Below are positions 480 through 33,500 of a stretch of DNA of 62,091 bases, piece by piece; the first letter of the stretch is position 1, and every line of letters begins with the position of its first letter. The stretch comes from a virus. Under the pieces are notes generated by a model. That model worked only from the letters and a program-made list of their open reading frames with translations, had not been told where the DNA came from and searched no databases. The position numbers and the translations under genes are program-made. Where the stretch lies: IMG/VR virus record IMGVR_UViG_3300036399_000656, positions 1-62,091 of that record; one strand, given 5' to 3'.

Positions 480-689
480 TTAGTATTTACGTCCTCCATA
501 TGATAACCTTGTCTTCCTGAATGGCGCAAACATGGCGCATTCGGCTTGGTATGTGGCTGTATCGACAACCTCGTAGCCCTTACGCACCATGGATGCAATG
601 AAGTTAGCCTCATGCTGTGCGTCATTGATGTTTACCACCATATCGAAGGAGTACTGCGATGGGCGGCGAAAAAAGAATCGTTTTTTCAT
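480..689 (-). CDS. Hypothetical basic protein, 69 aa
   Basis: The N-terminus carries six basic residues among the first nine (MKKRFFFRR) and the C-terminus is also basic; the middle, residues 17-50, reads like a small alpha/beta domain. No family is recognised. The ATG at 689 lies 14 bases after the 3' end of the tRNA-like structure at 704-747, so a cut at that structure would leave a very short 5' leader on this message. It belongs to the minus-strand operon read from the promoter near 2255. Confidence 0.55.
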   Translation of the reverse strand: MKKRFFFRRPSQYSFDMVVNINDAQHEANFIASMVRKGYEVVDTATYQAECAMFAPFRKTRLSYGGRKY

Positions 690-703
690 GCTGTTGAATT
701 TAG

Positions 704-747
704 AAACAGGGCAGGGAATCGAACCCTGCCTTGCACCATGCCTGTTT
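704..747 (-). ncRNA. Minimal tRNA-like structure 1 (acceptor, mini D-arm, T-arm)
   Basis: Read on the minus strand, AAACAG (747-742) pairs with CTGTTT (709-704) as a 6-bp acceptor-like stem. Inside it are an 11-base linker that can form a 3-bp hairpin GCA-UGG-UGC, and a 7-bp stem GGCAGGG/CCCTGCC closing the canonical 7-base T-loop TTCGATT. There is no anticodon arm and no encoded CCA. The 5' acceptor strand begins inside the TAA stop of the 158-aa gene (746-748), and the 3' flank is CTAAATTC. A second element at 1240-1283 has the same linker and acceptor but a different, still fully paired T-stem. Family knowledge: acceptor plus T-arm is enough for RNase P recognition. Function here is inference. 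Confidence 0.75.
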
Positions 748-1222
748 AGATGATTGAGTAATGAGCATCATTTGCGATGGCCTGAGCCGCGAGACGTGCA
801 TACGTCGCACGTTGCGTCTCAGTGCCGGCAACCTGTGGTTCAGGAAGGTCAATCACCTTATCGAGGTCAATTGAGTACATTGCCCGTTGGCCGTTGTGAA
901 TACCGAATTCAGCGGCCTCTTCGATAGTCTCGAAGTGACGGCTAATGTCTAGTACTAGCTTGCCGCTTTCCCACCAACCACCGATGTAGTTGTCGTCCTG
1001 CTCTAGCAACAGGCCGTTGGTTGCAATGAAGTCACGAACGTGCTGTGCAATCATTTCAGCCTGCAATTCACGCTTGTAGCGGATGAATGAGGTCGGAAGG
1101 TCAGCGATGTACTCATGGCCGTGAATCGAGGCAAATGCGCCTGTAGTTGGTATGCCATGGCTGAGGTGGTGAGTAGCCCCGTTGCCCGCAACGAGGGACT
1201 CGACAAAAGTGTTGAGGTTCAT
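746..1222 (-). CDS. Hypothetical early protein, 158 aa
   Basis: This is a soluble protein with no recognised domain. Residues 55-120 alternate charged and aromatic residues like a small alpha/beta fold, and there is no signal peptide or membrane segment. It sits between two tRNA-like structures: one ends 17 bases before its ATG, and the other starts within its stop codon. The start is the ATG at 1222, the first in frame after the upstream element. The gene is part of the early minus-strand operon, whose other members are also of unknown function. Such clusters in phages often hold host-takeover genes, but nothing in this sequence proves that. Confidence 0.65.
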   Translation of the reverse strand: MNLNTFVESLVAGNGATHHLSHGIPTTGAFASIHGHEYIADLPTSFIRYKRELQAEMIAQHVRDFIATNGLLLEQDDNYIGGWWESGKLVLDISRHFETIEEAAEFGIHNGQRAMYSIDLDKVIDLPEPQVAGTETQRATYARLAAQAIANDAHYSII

Positions 1223-1239
1223 ATGATATTGAAATTTAG

Positions 1240-1283
1240 AAACAGGAGCGGGAGTCGAACCCGCTCTTGCACCATGCCTGTTT
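1240..1283 (-). ncRNA. Minimal tRNA-like structure 2
   Basis: The architecture is the same as the element at 704-747: AAACAG/CTGTTT acceptor-like stem, the identical 11-base linker GCATGGTGCAA, and a 7-bp T-stem closing TTCGACT. The T-stem sequence is GAGCGGG/CCCGCTC instead of GGCAGGG/CCCTGCC, so several pairs differ between the copies while pairing stays perfect. This is direct covariation evidence for an RNA structure. The 5' strand starts inside the TAA stop (1282-1284) of the 161-aa gene, and the 3' flank is CTAAATTTC. No anticodon arm and no encoded CCA are present. Confidence 0.78.
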
Positions 1284-1767
1284 AGAAGATTGTCGTGTAA
1301 ATGCGGCCGTATGTGCGGCTTTGCTCTGCTAGGTAATCCCTTGCTGTATCGTTGCGCTTGAAGCGAATTGAGCGGCGGTTGTAATGCAGGATATTGTCCT
1401 CATCAATGGCAACCTCAACCCAAGGTGTGTTTGTCATGGATGCGCTGTACGATACACGATGGATGACCCGAACGCCTGTGCTGTTGCTGAATACTGAGAA
1501 GTACTCGTCGTAGCCGTTTGGACTCTCGTTCCTGTCTCGCTTGTACCACTTGACGTTGCCGTCAGTCAGTGTGAGCAAGCTATCAATTCGCTTGTCCCAT
1601 TCACGCGGGTTGTAATCGCGTCCCTGCTCTCTGATTTCATCAGTCGTGAGCGGTATCAGTTGAGCAATTGGCGCATAGTCGTGTATGTGAGCGTCGATTG
1701 TCTCTTGTGATAGGTTCATTTGCTTGAAGATTTCTACTTCGAATGCTGTGCCTTTTGTCATGTTCAT
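1282..1767 (-). CDS. Hypothetical early protein, 161 aa
   Basis: No family is recognised. The N-terminal 50 residues look helical, followed by an aromatic- and Asn/Arg-rich segment (residues 70-110) and a basic C-terminal stretch around residues 130-150. There is no membrane segment. It begins 24 bases after the 3' end of the tRNA-like structure at 1792-1868 and ends inside the 5' strand of the one at 1240-1283, so it is bracketed by two elements. Two in-frame ATGs (1767 and 1761) lie close together; the first is used here. It is most likely expressed early from the promoter near 2255. Confidence 0.65.
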   Translation of the reverse strand: MNMTKGTAFEVEIFKQMNLSQETIDAHIHDYAPIAQLIPLTTDEIREQGRDYNPREWDKRIDSLLTLTDGNVKWYKRDRNESPNGYDEYFSVFSNSTGVRVIHRVSYSASMTNTPWVEVAIDEDNILHYNRRSIRFKRNDTARDYLAEQSRTYGRIYTTIF

Positions 1768-1791: not shown

Positions 1792-1868
1792 AACAACGCG
1801 GGGACTCGAACCCCGTGCGATACTAGCAACCTCAGTTATCTAGTATTGCCGCGCCTTGCGTCGTTGCT
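1792..1868 (-). ncRNA. tRNA-like structure 3 (degenerate cloverleaf)
   Basis: On the minus strand AGCAACG (1868-1862) pairs with CGTTGTT (1798-1792) as a 7-bp acceptor stem with one G-U pair. A 5-bp T-stem CGGGG/CCCCG closes the canonical loop TTCGAGT. A 3-bp mini D-arm (CGC-AAG-GCG) is possible. In place of the anticodon arm there is a 7-bp stem ATACTAG/CTAGTAT (1846-1840 with 1826-1820) with a 13-base loop, which is not an anticodon loop. The 5' half overlaps the last codons and stop of the 49-aa gene. The 3' flank CTAAACAC resembles those of elements 1 and 2. Confidence 0.7.
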
Positions 1869-2505: not shown

Positions 2506-3194
2506 TAACCAATAGTGCTGAAAGCCGCGTCAGTATTGAGATACAGGCCGGCGGGAGAAAGTCAAAAATGGTCATTTTGAGGGTATGCGCTAGGCATTGG
2601 AGAGGGTAGCAGACAGGGAAGAAACCCAAAACATCGCGGGATGTTCTCTAGGACAGGCACAGCGCGGGATACAGGGCAAAAATCAACAAAAAGCGTTCAC
2701 TCCCTGTCACGCAGTCTACAGGATATCAGATAGGGGATAAACAAGCAAGCCAAACAGCAGGCAAAGGACAGGCCCAATCGCGGGCAAATCCACCACAGAT
2801 TCCACTAGATAACACACAAACAGCATAGAGATAGGCAAAGAGCAATAAAACCACTCATGCGCGCTCGCACATTGGCTCTCACAATCTAGGGTTGCCCGAA
2901 GCAGAAATTCCAAGCATTGCCTGTATCACAGTATTGACGCGGGTTCTAGGCGGTTTCTATTGGCTTGCATGACCATGTCGAGCGGGTTATTTGGCCTGCA
3001 TGGTGTGCATGGCTGAGCGGAATCTAACGTGCTGATAACTAACACGTTGGTGCTTTTATGCAAACAGGTTGATTATCAATGGGTTAGTCTACTTTCTCCA
3101 CGGGGCGGAGACAAGTTTACGGGGTGTCGAGCAGGCTATCGGGTGCGGGTTGTTGGGTGTGTGTTGCGTGGTCATTGGGTGCCTGTCGTCGGCA

Positions 3195-3254
3195 TAGTAA
3201 GTGTATGATGTACACTAAGTCCTAGCACGTGTAGTAAGTGTATGGTGTACACTA
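3195..3254. repeat. Two 23-bp repeats with internal palindrome (operator candidate)
   Basis: TAGTAAGTGTATG[A/G]TGTACACTA occurs at 3195-3217 and 3232-3254, differing at one position, with starts 37 bp apart. Each copy contains the inverted repeat AGTGTA-n5-TACACT. Paired palindromic repeats in an intergenic region are typical of dimeric repressor or initiator binding sites. Confidence 0.6.
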
Positions 3255-3455
3255 TCTCTACAGCCCGCATTGTTCCACGTATGTTCCACGGCCTGCTCCC
3301 CACGTTATCTTGCTGACTATCAGCGACATAGCTAAGTAGGTGTAACTGACTGCAAATCAGCCGATTGGAGGGTACCCCTGTTGCCAAATCGACTTCGGGA
3401 AGGGGTCGCGGCGGTGGCGGTGGGAGGGGTGACCCCAACCACAATTGGTCAATAA

Positions 3456-3531: not shown

Positions 3532-4056
3532 ATGAAGAGCAAATCAATGGCATCACGCCAGTACACTGCAAATATGTTCGGAAAGAGCAGTGGGGACCCT
3601 GGTAAGCGTCAGGCACGTCAAGAGCGTCGTGACGCTAGACAAGCGACTCGTGGCGGTAGCAAAAGCAATGACAATGTTGAGGTTTGTACAGCCAAGACAG
3701 CGAAGGAGGGTAAGTGTGGTGCTTACGCCGGCGGTGGTCCAAGTACGGGCACTGTTCAGAAGGCTAAGAACACAAAGCCTTCTTCGGGTGGTGAGAAGAA
3801 TGTTGTGTTGAAGGAGGGGAGTCGTAAGTTAGCTCGTCATCAGCGCAATTTGGCTAAGGTTCGTGCCAAGGCTCCTGCCCGTCCGATGACCCGTAAGGAG
3901 AAGGAGAAGGCGAATGAGATGCGTCCATCGCGCCAGGATTACAATGACAACAATGTTCCACGAGTTTCGTCTGCTAGACCGGCTCCTAAGCCTGCTAAGA
4001 AGGGTGTGTTGGGTAAAATTTTTAAGACTAGAAAAACTCAGAAAATAACAATCTAA
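3532..4056 (+). CDS. Lys/Arg-rich basic protein, 174 aa
   Basis: This is the first gene of an eight-gene basic cluster. The product is low-complexity and dominated by Lys, Arg, Ala, Gly and Ser, with repeated RQ/RR pairs at residues 25-40, two cysteines in the Cys-Thr-Ala-Lys and Lys-Cys-Gly segment (residues 52-63), and a Pro/Ala/Lys C-terminal tail. It reads like an H1- or protamine-type nucleic-acid-binding protein and not like a folded enzyme. No family is recognised. It is transcribed from the strong promoter just upstream. It could be a DNA-condensing virion protein or bind host nucleic acid; nothing visible decides this. Confidence 0.65.
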   Translation: MKSKSMASRQYTANMFGKSSGDPGKRQARQERRDARQATRGGSKSNDNVEVCTAKTAKEGKCGAYAGGGPSTGTVQKAKNTKPSSGGEKNVVLKEGSRKLARHQRNLAKVRAKAPARPMTRKEKEKANEMRPSRQDYNDNNVPRVSSARPAPKPAKKGVLGKIFKTRKTQKITI

Positions 4057-4060
4057 GGAT

Positions 4061-4420
4061 ATGCCAGAAAAAGTAAAAAAGAACCTGCTAGGTCGTGAGG
4101 TTACCAAATCAAAAACATATATTGGCCCTCCTGGAGTTAGTAAGAGTGACAAGGCAAAGGTGAAAACGAAGACTATTCGCAAGGGCGATACTACCAAGAC
4201 TCGTGAGGTGACTAAATATGGCGGTAAGAGAACGGTAGAAAAGACTAAAAATTACGGAGTTGGTGGGAATTCTTTAACCAAAAAAACGGTAAAATCGGGC
4301 GGCAAAACGGATCGTTCGGTTGAGGTTAAAAAGCCAGGAGAAACATTTACTTACGCCAATATGGGTCCTGCATCCCAGGCCCGTGCATACAATTTCCAAA
4401 AGAAAAAACTCAAAAAATAA
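4061..4420 (+). CDS. Lys-rich basic protein, 119 aa
   Basis: Dense Lys/Thr/Gly repeats such as KTKTIRKG and KKTVKSGGK run through the protein, and it ends in a Lys tail after a segment with Tyr and Phe (residues 92-112). That C-terminal pattern, an aromatic patch followed by KKKLKK, recurs in the 139-aa protein at 4739-5158, suggesting paralogy. No enzyme motif or membrane segment is seen. It starts four bases after its neighbour and its stop shares one base with the next start, so the genes are probably translationally coupled. Confidence 0.65.
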   Translation: MPEKVKKNLLGREVTKSKTYIGPPGVSKSDKAKVKTKTIRKGDTTKTREVTKYGGKRTVEKTKNYGVGGNSLTKKTVKSGGKTDRSVEVKKPGETFTYANMGPASQARAYNFQKKKLKK

Positions 4421-4713
4421 TGAAAAAACCATCAGCCGGCCCAAAGAATCCTTTGAGACTGAAAACTCGACAAGAGAGAAATCAGTCTAAGCTCAACAAG
4501 GTAAACACAAGAATATCAAAGTTGGAATCTAGTCAGAAGGAGTTAAACAAGCAAGAGTACCTGAATAAGGCTGCTAGTAGAATTACTGGTGTTTCTGAAT
4601 CAAGCCTTGCCCAGGGTAAACTTGGACAGCTTCAGAAGAAGAAGCAGCGAATAGAAAATATGATTACTCCAGGAAGACAAAAAACTGTGAAGACAGTAAA
4701 AAAAGGTAAATAA
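4420..4713 (+). CDS. Lys-rich basic protein, 97 aa
   Basis: This is a basic protein with a probable helical middle (residues 22-80, Lys/Gln/Leu/Ser-rich, coiled-coil-like) and the tail KTVKTVKKGK. Its start overlaps the stop of the previous gene by one base (TAATG). The bases encoding its tail (ACAGTAAAAAAAGGTAAATA) recur almost exactly at 5175-5199, just before another gene of the cluster, which suggests duplication within the cluster. Function is unknown beyond probable nucleic-acid binding. Confidence 0.6.
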   Translation: MKKPSAGPKNPLRLKTRQERNQSKLNKVNTRISKLESSQKELNKQEYLNKAASRITGVSESSLAQGKLGQLQKKKQRIENMITPGRQKTVKTVKKGK

Positions 4714-4738
4714 TTTTAATATCAAACAATCCAATAAA

Positions 4739-5158
4739 ATGGCTAGTTCTCCAAAAAACGATAGTACCCGCACCCGCAGAACGCTTGGTGGTGGTACAAA
4801 GACCGTTATCAAGTCGAAAGGTATTACTGGTAAGAAACGCACTGTGCTTCGCGAAATTCCAACTGATAAGGGCGTGGTGACCACTAAAAAAGAAGTTACC
4901 AGAAATAAGTATCCTGATGGCATCAGAACTAAAAGTAAGAAAGAGACTGTGTACAGAGGTGGTCAAAATAAAAACCTAACGACAGTTAAAGAAAAAACAT
5001 CTAAGGGCGGCCTTCTTAACAAGGCGAAGGGTTTGGTTAAAGGTTCTAACAAGTATGCATACACATCAGGTGACAACTTTGTAAGTTCTGCGAAAGAAGT
5101 TAATTATGGCTACGCAAAAAAACTGCAAAAGAGCATAAAAAAGGGAAGAACTAACTAA
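4739..5158 (+). CDS. Lys-rich basic protein, 139 aa
   Basis: The protein is Lys-, Thr- and Gly-rich throughout, with repeated TKK and KGG motifs. The C-terminal region (residues 110-139) has an aromatic patch, YAYTSGDN, and then a Lys-rich tail, resembling the 119-aa protein two genes upstream. The ATG follows AATCCAATAAA, an A-rich leader typical of Bacteroidota genes. No domain is recognised. I take it as a diverged paralogue of the 119-aa protein within a basic virion- or nucleoid-type cluster. Confidence 0.62.
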   Translation: MASSPKNDSTRTRRTLGGGTKTVIKSKGITGKKRTVLREIPTDKGVVTTKKEVTRNKYPDGIRTKSKKETVYRGGQNKNLTTVKEKTSKGGLLNKAKGLVKGSNKYAYTSGDNFVSSAKEVNYGYAKKLQKSIKKGRTN

Positions 5159-5201
5159 TGGCCAATGCATAATTGGTAAAACAGTAAAAAAGGTAAATAA
5201 A

Positions 5202-5675
5202 ATGGCTATTAAAAAAACGACTCCTCAAAACTCTCCTGACCCTAGACATAAGTCTTATGACAAGTTTAGAAAGGATCCATTAAGTAAGACACCTCAAAGA
5301 GGTGATAAAACAATTCGTTTTGATACGACTGATGCCGGGAAGACTTACACCAAAACTGTTTACAAAAGAGTTGGTGAAAAAAGAACGGACAGAGTAGCCA
5401 AAAAAGATCCTTATGCAAGATTTGGGAGCGATACCATTATAAAGCGAAAAACAGTATCCGCTAACAAGGCATTGCGTCAAGCTACTAGACTGTCTAAGAG
5501 ACCAGAAAACAAGTCTAAGTTAAATAACGAATCAGCACCTAAGAAAAATTCGTCAAAAGAAACTAGCAAGTCGGTTGGTTCTGCTGCTCCAGCTGCTGCT
5601 AAATCTTCTGCTGCTAAATCTGCCGCTGCTAAGAAACAAATTCCAAAAATGCGCGGAAAATACGGAAAAATGTAA
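5202..5675 (+). CDS. H1-like basic protein with Ala/Lys tail, 157 aa
   Basis: The first 90 residues are basic with scattered Tyr and Asp. The last 45 residues are an Ala/Lys/Ser/Pro tail (AAPAAAKSSAAKSAAAKK) of the kind seen in eukaryotic and bacterial histone-H1-like proteins, which bind DNA non-specifically. The start at 5202 follows GGTAAATAAA. Just upstream (5175-5199) is a remnant copy of the 3' end of the 97-aa gene. The stop shares one base with the next ATG. Role is probably nucleic-acid binding; virion or intracellular location is not decidable here. Confidence 0.65.
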   Translation: MAIKKTTPQNSPDPRHKSYDKFRKDPLSKTPQRGDKTIRFDTTDAGKTYTKTVYKRVGEKRTDRVAKKDPYARFGSDTIIKRKTVSANKALRQATRLSKRPENKSKLNNESAPKKNSSKETSKSVGSAAPAAAKSSAAKSAAAKKQIPKMRGKYGKM

Positions 5676-5794
5676 TGGCCAAATCACTAGGCAACGGACT
5701 AAAAACGGTATTCGGGAAGCGCAAGGAGGGTAAATCCTCCAAGCGCAAATCCCCGAAGGATAAGAATGTTAAACCTTCACGAGGACAGGGATGA
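5675..5794 (+). CDS. Very short basic protein, 39 aa
   Basis: The ATG at 5675 overlaps the previous stop (TAATG) and the TGA at 5792-5794 overlaps the next ATG (ATGA), so the frame is locked into the operon by both neighbours. About a third of residues are Lys or Arg, with KRKEGKSSKRK in the middle. There is no recognised family. Although short, the double overlap and shared composition make it a likely real gene of the basic cluster. Confidence 0.55.
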   Translation: MAKSLGNGLKTVFGKRKEGKSSKRKSPKDKNVKPSRGQG

Positions 5795-5949
5795 AAGCAA
5801 AGGCAGGACTATACGCAAATATCAACGCCAAACGCAAGCGCATAGCTGCTGGATCAGGCGAGAAGATGAGGAAGCCCGGAAGCAAAGGCGCTCCTAAGTT
5901 GAAGGACTTCATCAAGTCCAAGTTGACGGCTAAAAAGAAAAATAAATAA
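5791..5949 (+). CDS. Small conserved basic phage protein, 52 aa
   Basis: The sequence pattern AGLYANINAKRKRIAAGSG followed by a Lys/Pro segment is one I recall from small proteins of cyanophages and other marine phages, where it sits near structural genes; function is unknown. About 40 percent of residues are basic or small. It overlaps the 39-aa gene by ATGA and ends one base before the next ATG. I infer a virion-associated or nucleic-acid-binding role from composition and context. Confidence 0.65.
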   Translation: MKAKAGLYANINAKRKRIAAGSGEKMRKPGSKGAPKLKDFIKSKLTAKKKNK

Positions 5950-5950
5950 C

Positions 5951-6214
5951 ATGGCACGAACAGCTGCTTGGCAGCGTAAGGAAGGCAAGAACCCAAAGGG
6001 CGGATTGAACGCCAAGGGTCGTGCTGCGTACAAACGCGAAACAGGAGGTACATTGAAGCCACCAGTTTCAGCCAAGCAAGCAAAGAAGTCTCCCAAGAGC
6101 GCTGCCAGGCGGAAGTCCTTCTGTGCTAGAATGGGTGGTATGCCTGGTCCTATGAAGAAGCCTAACGGCAAGCCCACAAGGAAGGCGTTGGCTCTCCGCA
6201 AGTGGGACTGCTAA
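5951..6214 (+). CDS. DUF6321-like small basic protein, 87 aa
   Basis: The product has the pattern AWQRKEGKNPKGGLNAKGR, a central Lys/Pro linker, and a C-terminal SFCARMGGMPGPMKK segment ending in RKALALRKWDC. I recall this arrangement from a widespread family of small phage and environmental-virus proteins, which I believe is Pfam DUF6321; function unknown. Two conserved cysteines (in SFCAR and at the C-terminus) might bind metal or pair. It is the last gene of the basic cluster and is followed by a terminator 45 bases on. Confidence 0.72.
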   Translation: MARTAAWQRKEGKNPKGGLNAKGRAAYKRETGGTLKPPVSAKQAKKSPKSAARRKSFCARMGGMPGPMKKPNGKPTRKALALRKWDC

Positions 6215-6853: not shown

Positions 6854-6862
6854 TTGTTTTGT

Positions 6863-6957
6863 AGCCAGGACAGGACTCGAACCTGTATGGGTGAAAATTT
6901 ATACGTCGTTTCTACACCCTTACTACGCTTAGCGTCTACCAATTCCGCCACCTGACT
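6863..6957 (-). ncRNA. tRNA-Leu-derived tRNA-like structure 4
   Basis: On the minus strand AGTCAGG pairs with CCTGGCT (7 bp, one G-U). A D-arm with the bacterial tRNA-Leu pattern GGCGGAATTGGTAGACGC, including the conserved GG, and a T-arm ACAGG-TTCGAGT-CCTGT complete a normal elbow. The 45 bases between D- and T-arm do not give a 5-bp/7-base anticodon arm. They fold instead as a hairpin GGGTG/CACCC with a long loop. No CCA is encoded. It starts 8 bases after the stop of the 85-aa gene and ends 9 bases before the ATG of the 97-aa gene. It could be a decayed tRNA-Leu, but placement and the sister element at 7241-7364 favour a functional processing element. Confidence 0.72.
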
Positions 6958-7223: not shown

Positions 7224-7240
7224 TTTTTTATTTTTTTTGT

Positions 7241-7364
7241 AGTCAGGACAGGATTCGAACCTGCATATACTTCAGATACTATCTGCTGGATTGTATTAAT
7301 ATGGCAAAGTATATTCGTATCCAGTTACATACCATATTAGCGTCTACCATTCCGCCACCTGACT
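7241..7364 (-). ncRNA. tRNA-Leu-derived tRNA-like structure 5 with pseudoknot-prone insert
   Basis: AGTCAGG/CCTGACT form a perfect 7-bp acceptor. The D-arm (GGCGGAATGGTAGACGC) and T-arm (GCAGG-TTCGAAT-CCTGT) match element 4 closely. Between them lie 75 bases with an 8-bp stem TAATATGG/CCATATTA, a hairpin CAGAT-AGT-ATCTG, and two further complementary pairs (CTGGAT with ATCCAG; ATATACTT with AAGTATAT) that cross the first stem, so a pseudoknotted fold is likely. There is no anticodon arm and no CCA. It follows a stop-codon hairpin at 7368-7393 and precedes the 85-aa gene by 17 bases. Confidence 0.7.
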
Positions 7365-28508: not shown

Positions 28509-29263
28509 TGATTACTAACCTCGGTCAAATATATGATGAGCTTCTCTTCAGAGCCGGAAAGGATCTGAGGGGTGGCTACATCACGCCCGATGACTTCAAT
28601 CGGGCGATTAAGATTGTAAACCAGCGTTACTTGAACACGCTCGTAGACAACTTTGAAAACAGCCGAGAAATTACTAGCGACCTTCAGACATTCATCAAGA
28701 CCCTAGGTTCACCTCAGTACCCAGCCATGTCCTTCACTCCTGTTTTAGCAGGACGACCAGAGCGAGGAGGTTACGCGGACATTCCTGTCGACATTTGGTA
28801 TCAGGCAACAGCAAGTTTTCTTGAGATACTGAACAAGGAATGTTCATACGATACCAACTACCGAAGCGTAGAGTTTGTAAGCCAACACGAGTTTGACGCT
28901 AAGATGCGTAACTCGATTACAAGCCCGGTAGACAACCCGGAAGAAAACGATCCAATACTTGTTACACGAAATGACAGGTATTTCATTTATCCGTACATGC
29001 CACGGATAACCTTTACTTACATACGAGAGCCAATTCAGCCTGTATTTGATTATCAAATTGAGAACGGAATCCCTGTATATTTACCACCGGGAACTGTTCA
29101 CACGAATGCAACTACAGCTCCAATCGGCACTCCAAGTGCAAGCGTTGAATTTGAATATCCCGAAAGCTGCGTGGACCACCTAACTGATTTGATTAAAACT
29201 TACATCGGTATTGGTAACGAAAACCAATGGAACATTCAGACTCAAATGCCAAGTAAAGTATGA
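28508..29263 (+). CDS. Neck/ring connector protein, 251 aa
   Basis: A helical N-terminus (ELLFRAGKDLRGGYITPDDFNRAIKIVNQRYLNTL) followed by a beta domain resembles the head-tail connector (ring) proteins that stack under the portal in podoviruses. It shares an overlapping stop/start with both neighbours (TAATG upstream, ATGA-type downstream) and is the first of three genes of similar size. No residue-level match can be shown by eye. Confidence 0.55.
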   Translation: MITNLGQIYDELLFRAGKDLRGGYITPDDFNRAIKIVNQRYLNTLVDNFENSREITSDLQTFIKTLGSPQYPAMSFTPVLAGRPERGGYADIPVDIWYQATASFLEILNKECSYDTNYRSVEFVSQHEFDAKMRNSITSPVDNPEENDPILVTRNDRYFIYPYMPRITFTYIREPIQPVFDYQIENGIPVYLPPGTVHTNATTAPIGTPSASVEFEYPESCVDHLTDLIKTYIGIGNENQWNIQTQMPSKV

Positions 29264-29859: not shown

Positions 29860-30587
29860 CCATTAAGAATATAAAATATATCGCCACATCAGCTTTGTAC
29901 CGCTTGGGTAAGAACCCAGCAGGTCGTGAGCTTACGTGGATGACTCAGGTGGCTATTGATTACTTGAGCGAGAAGGCTCCACTCGATGGGAATGTGAGCC
30001 TGAAGACAATATACGCCAAGATAGATACGGGCGCGCGGGTATTCACGATGCCAGGCGACTGCATGAGGATTTCCAAGGTAGGATTGAAATCAGGTCGTCG
30101 CATTTGGACTTTGACACCAGACACCTCACTGACTTACCCAGAAGAGTTTTTTCAATGCGAGAGCGATCAGAATGATGACGTGGTATTGAATGGTTTTTTC
30201 CCAACGGGTTACTTTGGATACTTTTACAACCAACCTAACTACACGCTAGGCGGCGGACGTAATGTGAACTACTACCGCATAGATGGTAACAATATCATAT
30301 TTGACCAAAACATACCCGACGGTCAATTGATTATAGAGTATTTCTCAAACGGTTCGGAGGTAAATGAAAACACCTTGATTGATACAGGGTATGCCGAGCC
30401 GTTTCGTTTGTATTTGATGAGCGAATACTGCTTCCACAAAGGAGGCAGCGAGGACAAGGCCAAGTACAAAGAATTGCAGATGCAATACGAGGCAGCTCAA
30501 TGGAGCGCAAACCTTTTGATTAAGGCTCCACGATTGAGTGAAATGATTGACGCACTTGCACAGGCATCAGAATTTAATTTAGGATAA
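29856..30587 (+). CDS. Tail-tubular-type ring protein, 243 aa
   Basis: The sequence has a helical start (ATSALYRLGKNPAGRELTWMTQVAIDYLSEK), a beta-rich middle with many Tyr and Asn, and a helical end with KYKELQMQYEAAQWS. This resembles the gp11/adaptor class of podovirus tail proteins. It precedes the 1447-aa hub protein, as gp11 precedes gp12 in T7. The stop shares one base with the next ATG. Confidence 0.55.
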   Translation: MTIKNIKYIATSALYRLGKNPAGRELTWMTQVAIDYLSEKAPLDGNVSLKTIYAKIDTGARVFTMPGDCMRISKVGLKSGRRIWTLTPDTSLTYPEEFFQCESDQNDDVVLNGFFPTGYFGYFYNQPNYTLGGGRNVNYYRIDGNNIIFDQNIPDGQLIIEYFSNGSEVNENTLIDTGYAEPFRLYLMSEYCFHKGGSEDKAKYKELQMQYEAAQWSANLLIKAPRLSEMIDALAQASEFNLG

Positions 30588-33500
30588 TGGAGTTTAACGA
30601 AGTCATAGCATTTACCGGCGGTATAAATACCGACGACACACCTCAGGGTGTGCCTAAGGGAGATTATAGAGATTTCTCGTATTGTCGACTTGGATACAAT
30701 TCTGGTAACGCATATGCCGTAGAGACTTCTGATGGAACTTTGATTATTCCTGAGGAAACGATAGAGATTGAGGACCAAATCATCGGCGCTACCCAGTGGT
30801 TGAAAATGAACGCAATCGTGTACTTTGTCTATAAGGCTAATCTTGTTCATGAGATTTGGTTTTACGAAATAGATTCCCTAAGCCATACTCGCGTTCTACA
30901 GTCTGCTGAGCTAAACTTCAGCAGAGACTGGCCGGTATACCACGCCAACGTGGTTGACGATATTCTCAAATGGACGGACGGTCGTTGGGATCCCCAGATG
31001 TATGATGCGGACGGTAATAGACTTTTCAATCCTCCGTACCAAATCAATTTGCAAAAGGCGCTTGACAGCTTCTACACGAGCGTAACCCTTCAGACCATTG
31101 ATGCTATTAAGTGGCCAATGGACCCTCCTCGCGTAGCCTATTTTACAGATCCCACAAGACAAGATAACAAACTCCGCAATAAGCTGTTCAAGTTTATTAT
31201 TCAGCCTATTTACGAGAACGGGGAGGCTGGAGTGTGGTCGATGTATTCTAATTTAGAGTTGCCTCAGCAGTCTGAATTGATACCTGGAACCAATTGGCTT
31301 TATCCAAACAACAGTAACGGAATCAACATACAGTTTGAGACAGGTCCCCAGATAATAAGAAAGTTTAATATCGCTGTACAGCAATATGACAAGGAAGATT
31401 TTGGAACAGAGCCTCCTTTTGGGGTATTTCTTCAGTTAGACAAGGACCAAGACGTAATACCAAACAATACTATTTGGACTGTTTCTTTTTACGGAGGGGT
31501 TGCCACGACTCCGGCTGTAGACGTATTTAAGAACTACGATCGACTACCGATAACCGCAAGCTGTCAAGAGTACCTCCCCACGAGCCAGATAGTGTACACT
31601 AACTTCAGGGAGGGGTACGACAAACCTACAGAGGAGCCTTTTATCCTTGACGTTGGGGTTGGCTATCAGTTAAACGAAATAAACTGGAACCCATTTGCGG
31701 CAATTGATCTTGATATTACATACAGCCTTGCGTCTTCATCAATAACAACAGACACTGATGATTTTAACGCAAACGATGTGTTTCCGTTTTCTGCCGGTTT
31801 GGTGCTTCAAGGTCCAGCGCCAACTAGCGCTTCAATTGGTATATTTGTTTATCAGATAACTCAAGCGGATATTGACGCAGCACTAGCGGCGGGCGCTACT
31901 CCAATGGATTGGAACATAGCGATAATGAATATCATATGTAACTCTTTCATGTCTCAATTGGGCTACACCCCTGTGTCATCGGCAGTTGCATTAGGTAATG
32001 CTGTTAGATATACTTTTACAGCGGGTCCTAATCCAGATGGGGTTTTTAATCCAAGGGTAAGATCATACAGACAAACGCTTTCCGCTCCATCTCTGAAAGT
32101 AGGAGCCACCCATGAATTTGGTATTGTGTACGGAGACAGGGCGTATAGGGACGGTACTGTTTACACGGTAGATTCCATGAATCTATTCGTTCCCTGGTTT
32201 TATGATTTGGACAGGACTGGACTTAGCAATGCCGACAATCCATTTACGGTAAATGCAAGATTTACTATAGACCACATACCCCCGGTATGGGCTGACAGGT
32301 ATTGGATAGTAGCAAAGCCGGCAACTGAAATTTCTAGTTTTGGTCAGTACACAACCAACGCAAATGACATTAGTTTGATTGGTAATGTTGGGGGAAGCGG
32401 ATACGTTTCTTCAATATATTTAGACACAGTAACCAACAACAGATACATAATAAACATAGACAAGTACTATGTAAATCAGAACATTGGAGCGTCAATAGCC
32501 CATGAGATTAAAATTGGAGACAAGATAAGATTCATAAGAAGAAGACTGGACGGACCGGCAACAACCGCCGACCAGGTTGCCTACTTGCCGTATCTTGAGT
32601 TAGATGTTGTCGGGTATGATCCGGTGGGAGGTGAACAGCAACGCCAAATAGTTTATACAAACATATTTGACACAAGCCTCATAGAGACGCAGGCTGGATT
32701 AGACTCGGTTGACGGACAGCTGTTTGGTCAACTGATAGAAATATACACACCAACACCTTCGGTGGATGATACAGGAAACTTGTTTGTATCCACTTGGAAA
32801 GATGTAAGCGAGGCCATAGACATAAGAAACCCACACACGGAAGACAGGGCGCACGGAGCGCCGCCTTTGTATTATGTGTACATAACAGGTGATGACCCTT
32901 ATTTCTTCTACATGAATGGGGATTATACATTCCTAGAAGGCAATACGTATTCTGTTACAATACACAATTTAAACGGTACCACCAACTCGGTTAGCGCAGT
33001 AGTTAATTTAGCTTCCTACCAGCAGTCTTCAAATCAGACTAGACTTGCGTTTGGATTTGCCGCCACATCTAGCATGGCTTACTTGACCATAGATACGGAT
33101 GTGTTTGCTGCTGAAACAAACGAATATCAAATATCAAACGATTTAGTTTCATCTCGACCAGCAACGTTTGCTTTAGGCTACGGGGATGTGTATGTAAAGC
33201 AGAGAAACTACCAGACAGGCATGGCCGCAGAATCGGCTCAGGCTTATTATTTTATTGAGGATCCAAACTACTCAGACTACTGGCCAAGCAACATACACGA
33301 AACCGGAAGAACAAGGATTGAGGATCCTAATGCTAAGATGACTCACCGCCAGGCAACGGCTATTCATTCTGATTCATTTATCGTAGGAACCCAGATAAAC
33401 GGTTTATCTTCTTTCTCTTTGTTGAATGATAACATCGAGGGCATGAATTCACTGTTCGGTCCTGTTGTTAGAACATATATGTCAGGACGCGAAGGTAAAA

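Follow-up and report, generated by a model that had tools for sequence, protein, structure and literature searches.

The window analysed here is the whole 62-kb record of a virus from IMG/VR. Its terminase shares only ~24% identity with the terminases of annotated phages. The closest of these come from phages of Flavobacterium, Cellulophaga, Maribacter and Tenacibaculum, which makes a Bacteroidota host likely. The first 1.8 kb hold a minus-strand operon in which a larger tRNA-like element (1792..1868) is followed by a 161-aa gene (1282..1767), mini-tRNA element 2 (1240..1283), a 158-aa gene (746..1222), mini-tRNA element 1 (704..747), a 69-aa gene (480..689) and two small genes. The 161-aa gene had no match in Pfam or PHROG, and a family search with the 158-aa gene gave no informative match. 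Adjoining the operon, a row of plus-strand genes (3532-6214) encodes small low-complexity proteins that are very basic and rich in lysine.

A first-pass annotation had placed two anticodon-less tRNA-like elements at 704-747 and 1240-1283. These coordinates are right, and both elements lie on the minus strand, like the flanking genes. As it had described, each begins within the stop codon of the gene before, 2 nt into the overlapping TAA of the 158-aa gene (element 1) or the 161-aa gene (element 2), and ends 14 nt (element 1, to the ATG of the 69-aa gene) or 17 nt (element 2) before the next ATG. Element 1 (747-704, AAACAGGCATGGTGCAAGGCAGGGTTCGATTCCCTGCCCTGTTT) consists of a 7-bp acceptor, a mini D-hairpin CA-UGG-UG and a 6-bp T-arm. 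Element 2 (1283-1240, AAACAGGCATGGTGCAAGAGCGGGTTCGACTCCCGCTCCTGTTT) has the same acceptor and D-hairpin, while its T-stem is altered on both sides; the common acceptor strands and matched T-stem changes claimed previously could thus be re-read in the sequence. The layout of both is AAACAGG-CA-UGG-UG-CAAG-(T-stem)-UUCGAYU-(T-stem)-CCUGUUU, then C-UAA, with the discriminator-like C at position 703 (element 1) and 1239 (element 2). Their common 18-nt start occurs twice in the window, where 0.06 occurrences are expected, and the exact 18-mer is also present in 8 other IMG/VR contigs. The identical 11-base linker noted before is indeed shared, but it is not a plain linker: it forms a mini D-arm, GCA-UGG-UGC, which shows covariation among the family members. 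Likewise, acceptor and T-arm are both there, but not alone, since a mini D-hairpin with an invariant GG accompanies them.

The larger element at 1792..1868 (minus strand) follows the same design, with an acceptor AGCAACG/CGUUGUU, a D-arm loop AAGGC and a T-arm that is also matched by our covariance model; an extra hairpin replaces the anticodon arm. C-UAA follows directly, and 24 nt separate the element from the ATG at 1767. Two further minus-strand elements lie between two genes each: a tRNA-Leu-like gene with an irregular anticodon region (6861..6957), 8 nt from the next ATG, and a second tRNA-Leu-like element of 125 nt with an enlarged middle (7240..7364; Rfam tRNA, 37.4 bits). The 5' strands of their acceptors are identical. 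The gene at 6861..6957 is the full-size counterpart of the elements to which we attribute a punctuating role below, and both look like larger punctuation elements rather than working tRNAs. The mini elements carry no tRNA isotype signal, and the window's larger tRNA-like relatives could be intermediate forms. In MW202828, the region 520-690 contains two unannotated tRNA-like sequences that ARAGORN missed, one of them similar to the window's tRNA-Leu-like genes.

A family of mini-tRNA elements

A degenerate sequence pattern led to 51 contigs, and a structural filter over the first set of loci retained 71 elements against 1 in shuffled sequence. Wider patterns gave at least 178 further loci, at least 97 of which contained elements after structural filtering (at least 123 elements; none in the shuffles). 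Overall, the family comprises at least ~225 elements of 40-46 nt in at least ~125 viral contigs, plus cultured mycobacteriophages, while shuffled controls gave 0-1 matches. The elements are widespread and unannotated in phages, and they are spread over unrelated phages.

Each element combines an acceptor stem and a T-arm with a mini D-hairpin of 2-3 bp that exposes GG. The 10-14 nt from acceptor to T-stem are occupied by the mini D-hairpin, and there is no anticodon arm with a 7-nt loop. In an alignment of 39 family members, 99.7% of the cells are paired and compensatory double changes were found in 14 of the 15 pairs (acceptor 7/7, mini D 2/2, T-stem 5/6). Covariation reached 0.97, compared with 0.20 in shuffled and at most 0.20 in slid alignments; pairing of acceptor and T-stem was used in selecting candidates, so it is evidential mainly against the shuffled controls. 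Pairing of the mini D-stem was not demanded in the first set, where the pattern used for finding contigs fixed part of the hairpin, and this stem occurs in the variants CA-UGG-UG, CU-UGG-AG, UU-UGG-AA and AA-UGG-UU. Its GG is invariant in the alignment, as docking on the T-loop at a tRNA elbow would require. Almost all members have the T-loop UUCGANY, and the coaxial stack of acceptor and T-stem measures 12 or 13 bp and ends there (11 bp in some mycobacteriophage copies). The marks of a canonical tRNA elbow, namely a D-loop GG, a T-loop UUCRANY and a 12-bp acceptor/T stack, are therefore all found in the elements. Some copies carry an extra hairpin at the anticodon position (contig L103, the window at 1868-1792, and phages Cuke and Indlulamithi). 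Neither an anticodon nor a CCA is conserved among the elements, and therefore no decoding role is expected.

With a covariance model of 39 family members, the two window elements score 64.8 and 64.2 bits (E ~1e-18). The next-best matches in the window reach 13-17 bits, among them T-arms from the larger tRNA-like genes. The model is specific, since real tRNAs yield nothing beyond partial matches to the T-arm, at ~20 bits or less. Folding z-scores of the single window copies are only ~-2.2; the proof of their structure is comparative and does not come from single-copy folding. The first-pass annotation had made its reading depend on further copies in related phages. Such copies exist: matches covering the whole element, or nearly so, were obtained in 25 of 28 virus records, and the model also finds members in relatives selected by terminase only (G013-G015 and G017). 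Conserved, covarying, anticodon-less tRNA-like elements at phage stop codons are thus a reality well beyond the two copies first noticed.

None of the Rfam families was matched by the elements at gathering or relaxed thresholds, and neither ARAGORN nor the Rfam tRNA model recognised the mini elements. A megablast comparison of the window and contig L114 with annotated phages gave no match, and BLAST of single elements against phages returned mostly tRNA T-arms, plus one attP site. A strict pattern had three matches in bacterial and archaeal genomes; the one judged real lies on a contig that probably belongs to a phage and was binned with an Aliivibrio MAG. In the closest cultured Bacteroidota phages among those examined (Cellulophaga phage phi38:1, Maribacter phage Panino and a Flavobacterium elemo phage), no model match exceeded ~20 bits. 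In the open-access PMC literature that we searched, no account of phage elements of this kind turned up; the lack of a prior description there and in Rfam does not prove novelty.

Two of the IMG/VR matches are isolates, Mycobacterium phage Phantastic and Mycobacterium phage Cuke. In Mycobacterium phage Indlulamithi, an element is present in all 10 annotated gaps of 70-130 nt within the stretch read, and in Cuke in 9 of 13 such gaps. These elements lie mostly 8-10 nt past the stop codon, and on their 3' side ACG or a similar sequence, a hairpin and a purine-rich ribosome-binding site are found. Acceptor and T-stem pairs covary in the mycobacteriophage copies too. None of the Indlulamithi and Cuke elements is annotated, and ARAGORN and Rfam find only ordinary tRNAs in this comparison. 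Phantastic has one copy in the gap between genes 88 and 87; gene 88 and the mini-tRNA (2879-3360) are absent as a unit from phage Fred313, the genomes being otherwise similar. Moreover, 20 pairs of elements have a common upstream and a differing downstream gene, and 20 show the reverse. These pairs and gene 88 of Phantastic suggest that a gene moves together with its element, whereby each cassette would be independent of the genes around it.

Other tRNA-like sequences were seen in cultured phages. Cellulophaga phage phi38:1 has identical tRNA-Glu genes at 28604-28676 and 30574-30646 (minus strand), outside its tRNA cluster and ~20 nt before the start codons of small genes, places where relatives have mini-tRNAs. 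Acinetobacter phage ZZ1 contains an acceptor-like stem and T-arm with almost no linker (1985-2030), at the edge of a tRNA cluster and shortly before a start codon. An unannotated tRNA-like region of Nitrincola phage 1M3-16 (3485-3610) encloses two T-arms in one long outer stem.

Position and ends of the elements

The elements lie at gene boundaries on the coding strand, as do t-elements and the tRNAs of tRNA punctuation. In the first set, 59 of 79 elements have a stop codon of the same strand upstream of them at a distance of -3 to +15 nt (9% at random), and 51 of 79 combine such a stop with a start codon no more than 60 nt away (3.6% at random). Among the second-set elements in the matches listed, 87 of 123 are near an upstream stop (5.9% at random) and 82 of 123 near stop and start (3.3% at random); both sets include related contigs, so that the counts are not fully independent. 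Of the 79, 25 begin exactly at -2 from the stop; for most of them, the first two acceptor bases are at the same time the AA of UAA. On contig L114, genes and elements alternate thirteen times within 4.5 kb, the genes being small. Two findings count against punctuation: some operon gaps hold no element, and a tandem array lies away from gene boundaries. The latter, on the 124-kb contig L116 (3754-4310), consists of five mini elements with non-coding spacers of ~60-90 nt, not between genes.

The ends are constrained as well. The base 5' of the acceptor is never G in the first set (0/79; T 38, A 25, C 16), and G is rare in the second (5 of 123, among the matches listed). The base 3' of the acceptor is C in 69 of 79, with a tendency towards C-U-A-A. 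Exclusion of G means that no pair forms with this C, so the stem end is sharp. In 34 of 78 cases, against 5.6 expected, the acceptor is followed after 0-5 nt by a hairpin of 5 bp or more, which covaries in the copies of contigs L115, L135 and L124. The two window copies have no such hairpin, and their leaders are short and A/U-rich. Where the hairpin is present, an mRNA cut past the base 3' of the acceptor would carry it at its 5' end, and a 5'-terminal hairpin is a known protection of mRNA 5' ends.

A punctuation model and its alternatives

The features kept in the elements (the acceptor/T-arm stack, the elbow and unpaired ends) are those read by tRNA end-processing enzymes, the features for decoding and charging are absent, and the position is at gene boundaries. 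Taken together, this makes it reasonably probable that the elements punctuate polycistronic phage mRNA, elbow and acceptor forming a minimal substrate on which RNase Z and/or RNase P of the host act. Folding in vivo, cleavage, the cutting enzyme and the benefit are what we infer in this model. The phage operon would be transcribed as one RNA carrying elements between its genes. In each element, the acceptor stem would stack on the T-arm (usually 12-13 bp) and the GG of the mini D-hairpin would dock on the T-loop, so that the elbow and the acceptor end of a tRNA are formed in a molecule that has no anticodon arm. RNase Z of the host may then cut past the conserved base 3' of the acceptor, and host RNase P probably cuts 5' of it. 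The downstream gene would receive its own mRNA, at whose 5' end a short leader or a hairpin would stand, and the upstream gene would gain a defined 3' end. The benefit may lie in separate mRNA stability and translation of adjacent cassettes.

RNase P cleavage is plausible, and RNase Z suits the flanks at least equally well. Bacterial RNase P prefers a CCA after the acceptor, and the elements encode none, which counts against its cleavage. At the 25 TAA overlaps, an RNase P cut at the acceptor end would take the stop codon off the upstream mRNA, so that RNase Z alone, cutting after translation, or 3'-end repair would have to be assumed there. Such an overlap, seen for one third of the first-set elements, speaks for RNase Z at these places or for cutting after translation. 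We would give even chances to the broader proposition that anticodon-less mini-tRNAs, spread convergently or horizontally in unrelated phages (Bacteroidota, Actinobacteria and others), make the host's tRNA-maturation enzymes general mRNA cutters, each cassette becoming an autonomous mRNA that is sometimes cut inside the stop codon.

The TAA overlap in 25 of 79 elements, together with the tight spacing to the upstream stop, the conserved base after the acceptor and the CCA not being encoded, would also suit a 3'-end cap. Here, RNase Z would cut the downstream side only and the host would add CCA, so that the stop codon stays on the upstream mRNA, which would end in a protective tRNA-like structure; in plant viral RNAs, tRNA-like ends protect the RNA. 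We regard this as rather unlikely, because the exclusion of G before the acceptor points to a defined 5' boundary as well and the downstream hairpin suggests that the downstream mRNA also matters. Terminator, attC/att and decoy readings are ranked low. The released mini-tRNA might itself be the product, for instance a decoy or small RNA binding tRNA-binding host factors, its intergenic place being merely convenient. The many copies in some phages, the non-coding array of L116 and the larger tRNA-like relatives in the same genomes would agree with this. However, the stems vary among copies of one genome with only the fold being kept, and a decoy needs neither near-perfect intergenic placement nor a following hairpin, which leaves little probability for this view.

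A boundary at the DNA level, where elements serve as recombination sites for gene gain and loss like attC or tRNA-end att sites, could account for the pairs sharing one neighbouring gene and for the unit missing from Fred313. Yet compensatory changes keep the RNA pairing amid sequence divergence, the opposite of what homology-driven exchange needs; moreover, the elements have a single orientation relative to genes and no attC consensus was seen by eye, and we consider this very improbable. An attP site or integrated tRNA 3' end, which would be single, beside an integrase and identical to a host tRNA end, was rejected as a separate candidate: the copies are multiple, diverged and between ordinary genes, in contrast to the case of Gordonia phage Beenie. 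We give hardly any credence to intrinsic terminators or attenuators, made of the T-arm hairpin and a U-rich acceptor strand. A terminator scan does label both window elements as terminator-like, because CUGUUUCUAA comes after the T-stem, but this U-rich tract is not kept across the family, where acceptors like CAGGGGC, CCGGAGC and GCGGC occur, and GG and UUCGANY would be superfluous.

If cleavage in the punctuation model is real, phages have arrived anew at punctuation of the mitochondrial kind, using a module of 40-46 nt, which would account for the separate expression of tiny-gene arrays from one promoter. The module would be a natural RNase P/RNase Z substrate of minimal size and a portable part for gene separation in bacteria, and many 'empty' intergenic gaps and some orphan tRNAs of phages would be processing signals. 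Punctuation is directly testable in the Mycobacterium smegmatis phages Cuke, Indlulamithi and Phantastic.

Comparison with known systems

In animal mitochondria, tRNA shapes also lie directly between the genes of a polycistronic RNA, in some cases in contact with the stop codon, and stop codons are completed by polyadenylation; the mitochondrial punctuators, however, are working tRNAs. In MALAT1, the tRNA-like mascRNA/menRNA determines where an RNA ends on its 3' side, by way of RNase P and RNase Z, but this is a single nuclear lncRNA locus in vertebrates, with further arms and no gene separation. Minimal RNase P substrates and external guide sequences demonstrate that acceptor and T-arm are recognised without an anticodon arm. 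These are laboratory constructs, whereas the phage elements are natural and have a mini D-hairpin.

RNase P model substrates and guide sequences are treated in a review, which also describes the dimeric tRNA precursor of phage T4, where no CCA is encoded and tRNA-Ser has UAA in its place (PMC11143913). Start Associated Sequences and ESAS of Cluster K mycobacteriophages are repeats with inverted repeats just before the starts of small genes, and in this position they resemble our elements; they are conserved sequence repeats, not described as tRNA-like, and a role in translation initiation has been proposed for them (PMC3203893). Closest in outline, together with mitochondrial tRNA punctuation, are the t-elements of plant mitochondria, tRNA-like sequences at mRNA ends that are cut from mRNAs by RNase P and RNase Z, CCA-tailed and not aminoacylated (PMC11658184), a cleavage such as we propose for the phages. 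The t-elements are homologous to tRNA genes and form typical tRNA-like structures, whereas the elements described here lack the anticodon arm by design, occur in many copies and belong to phages.
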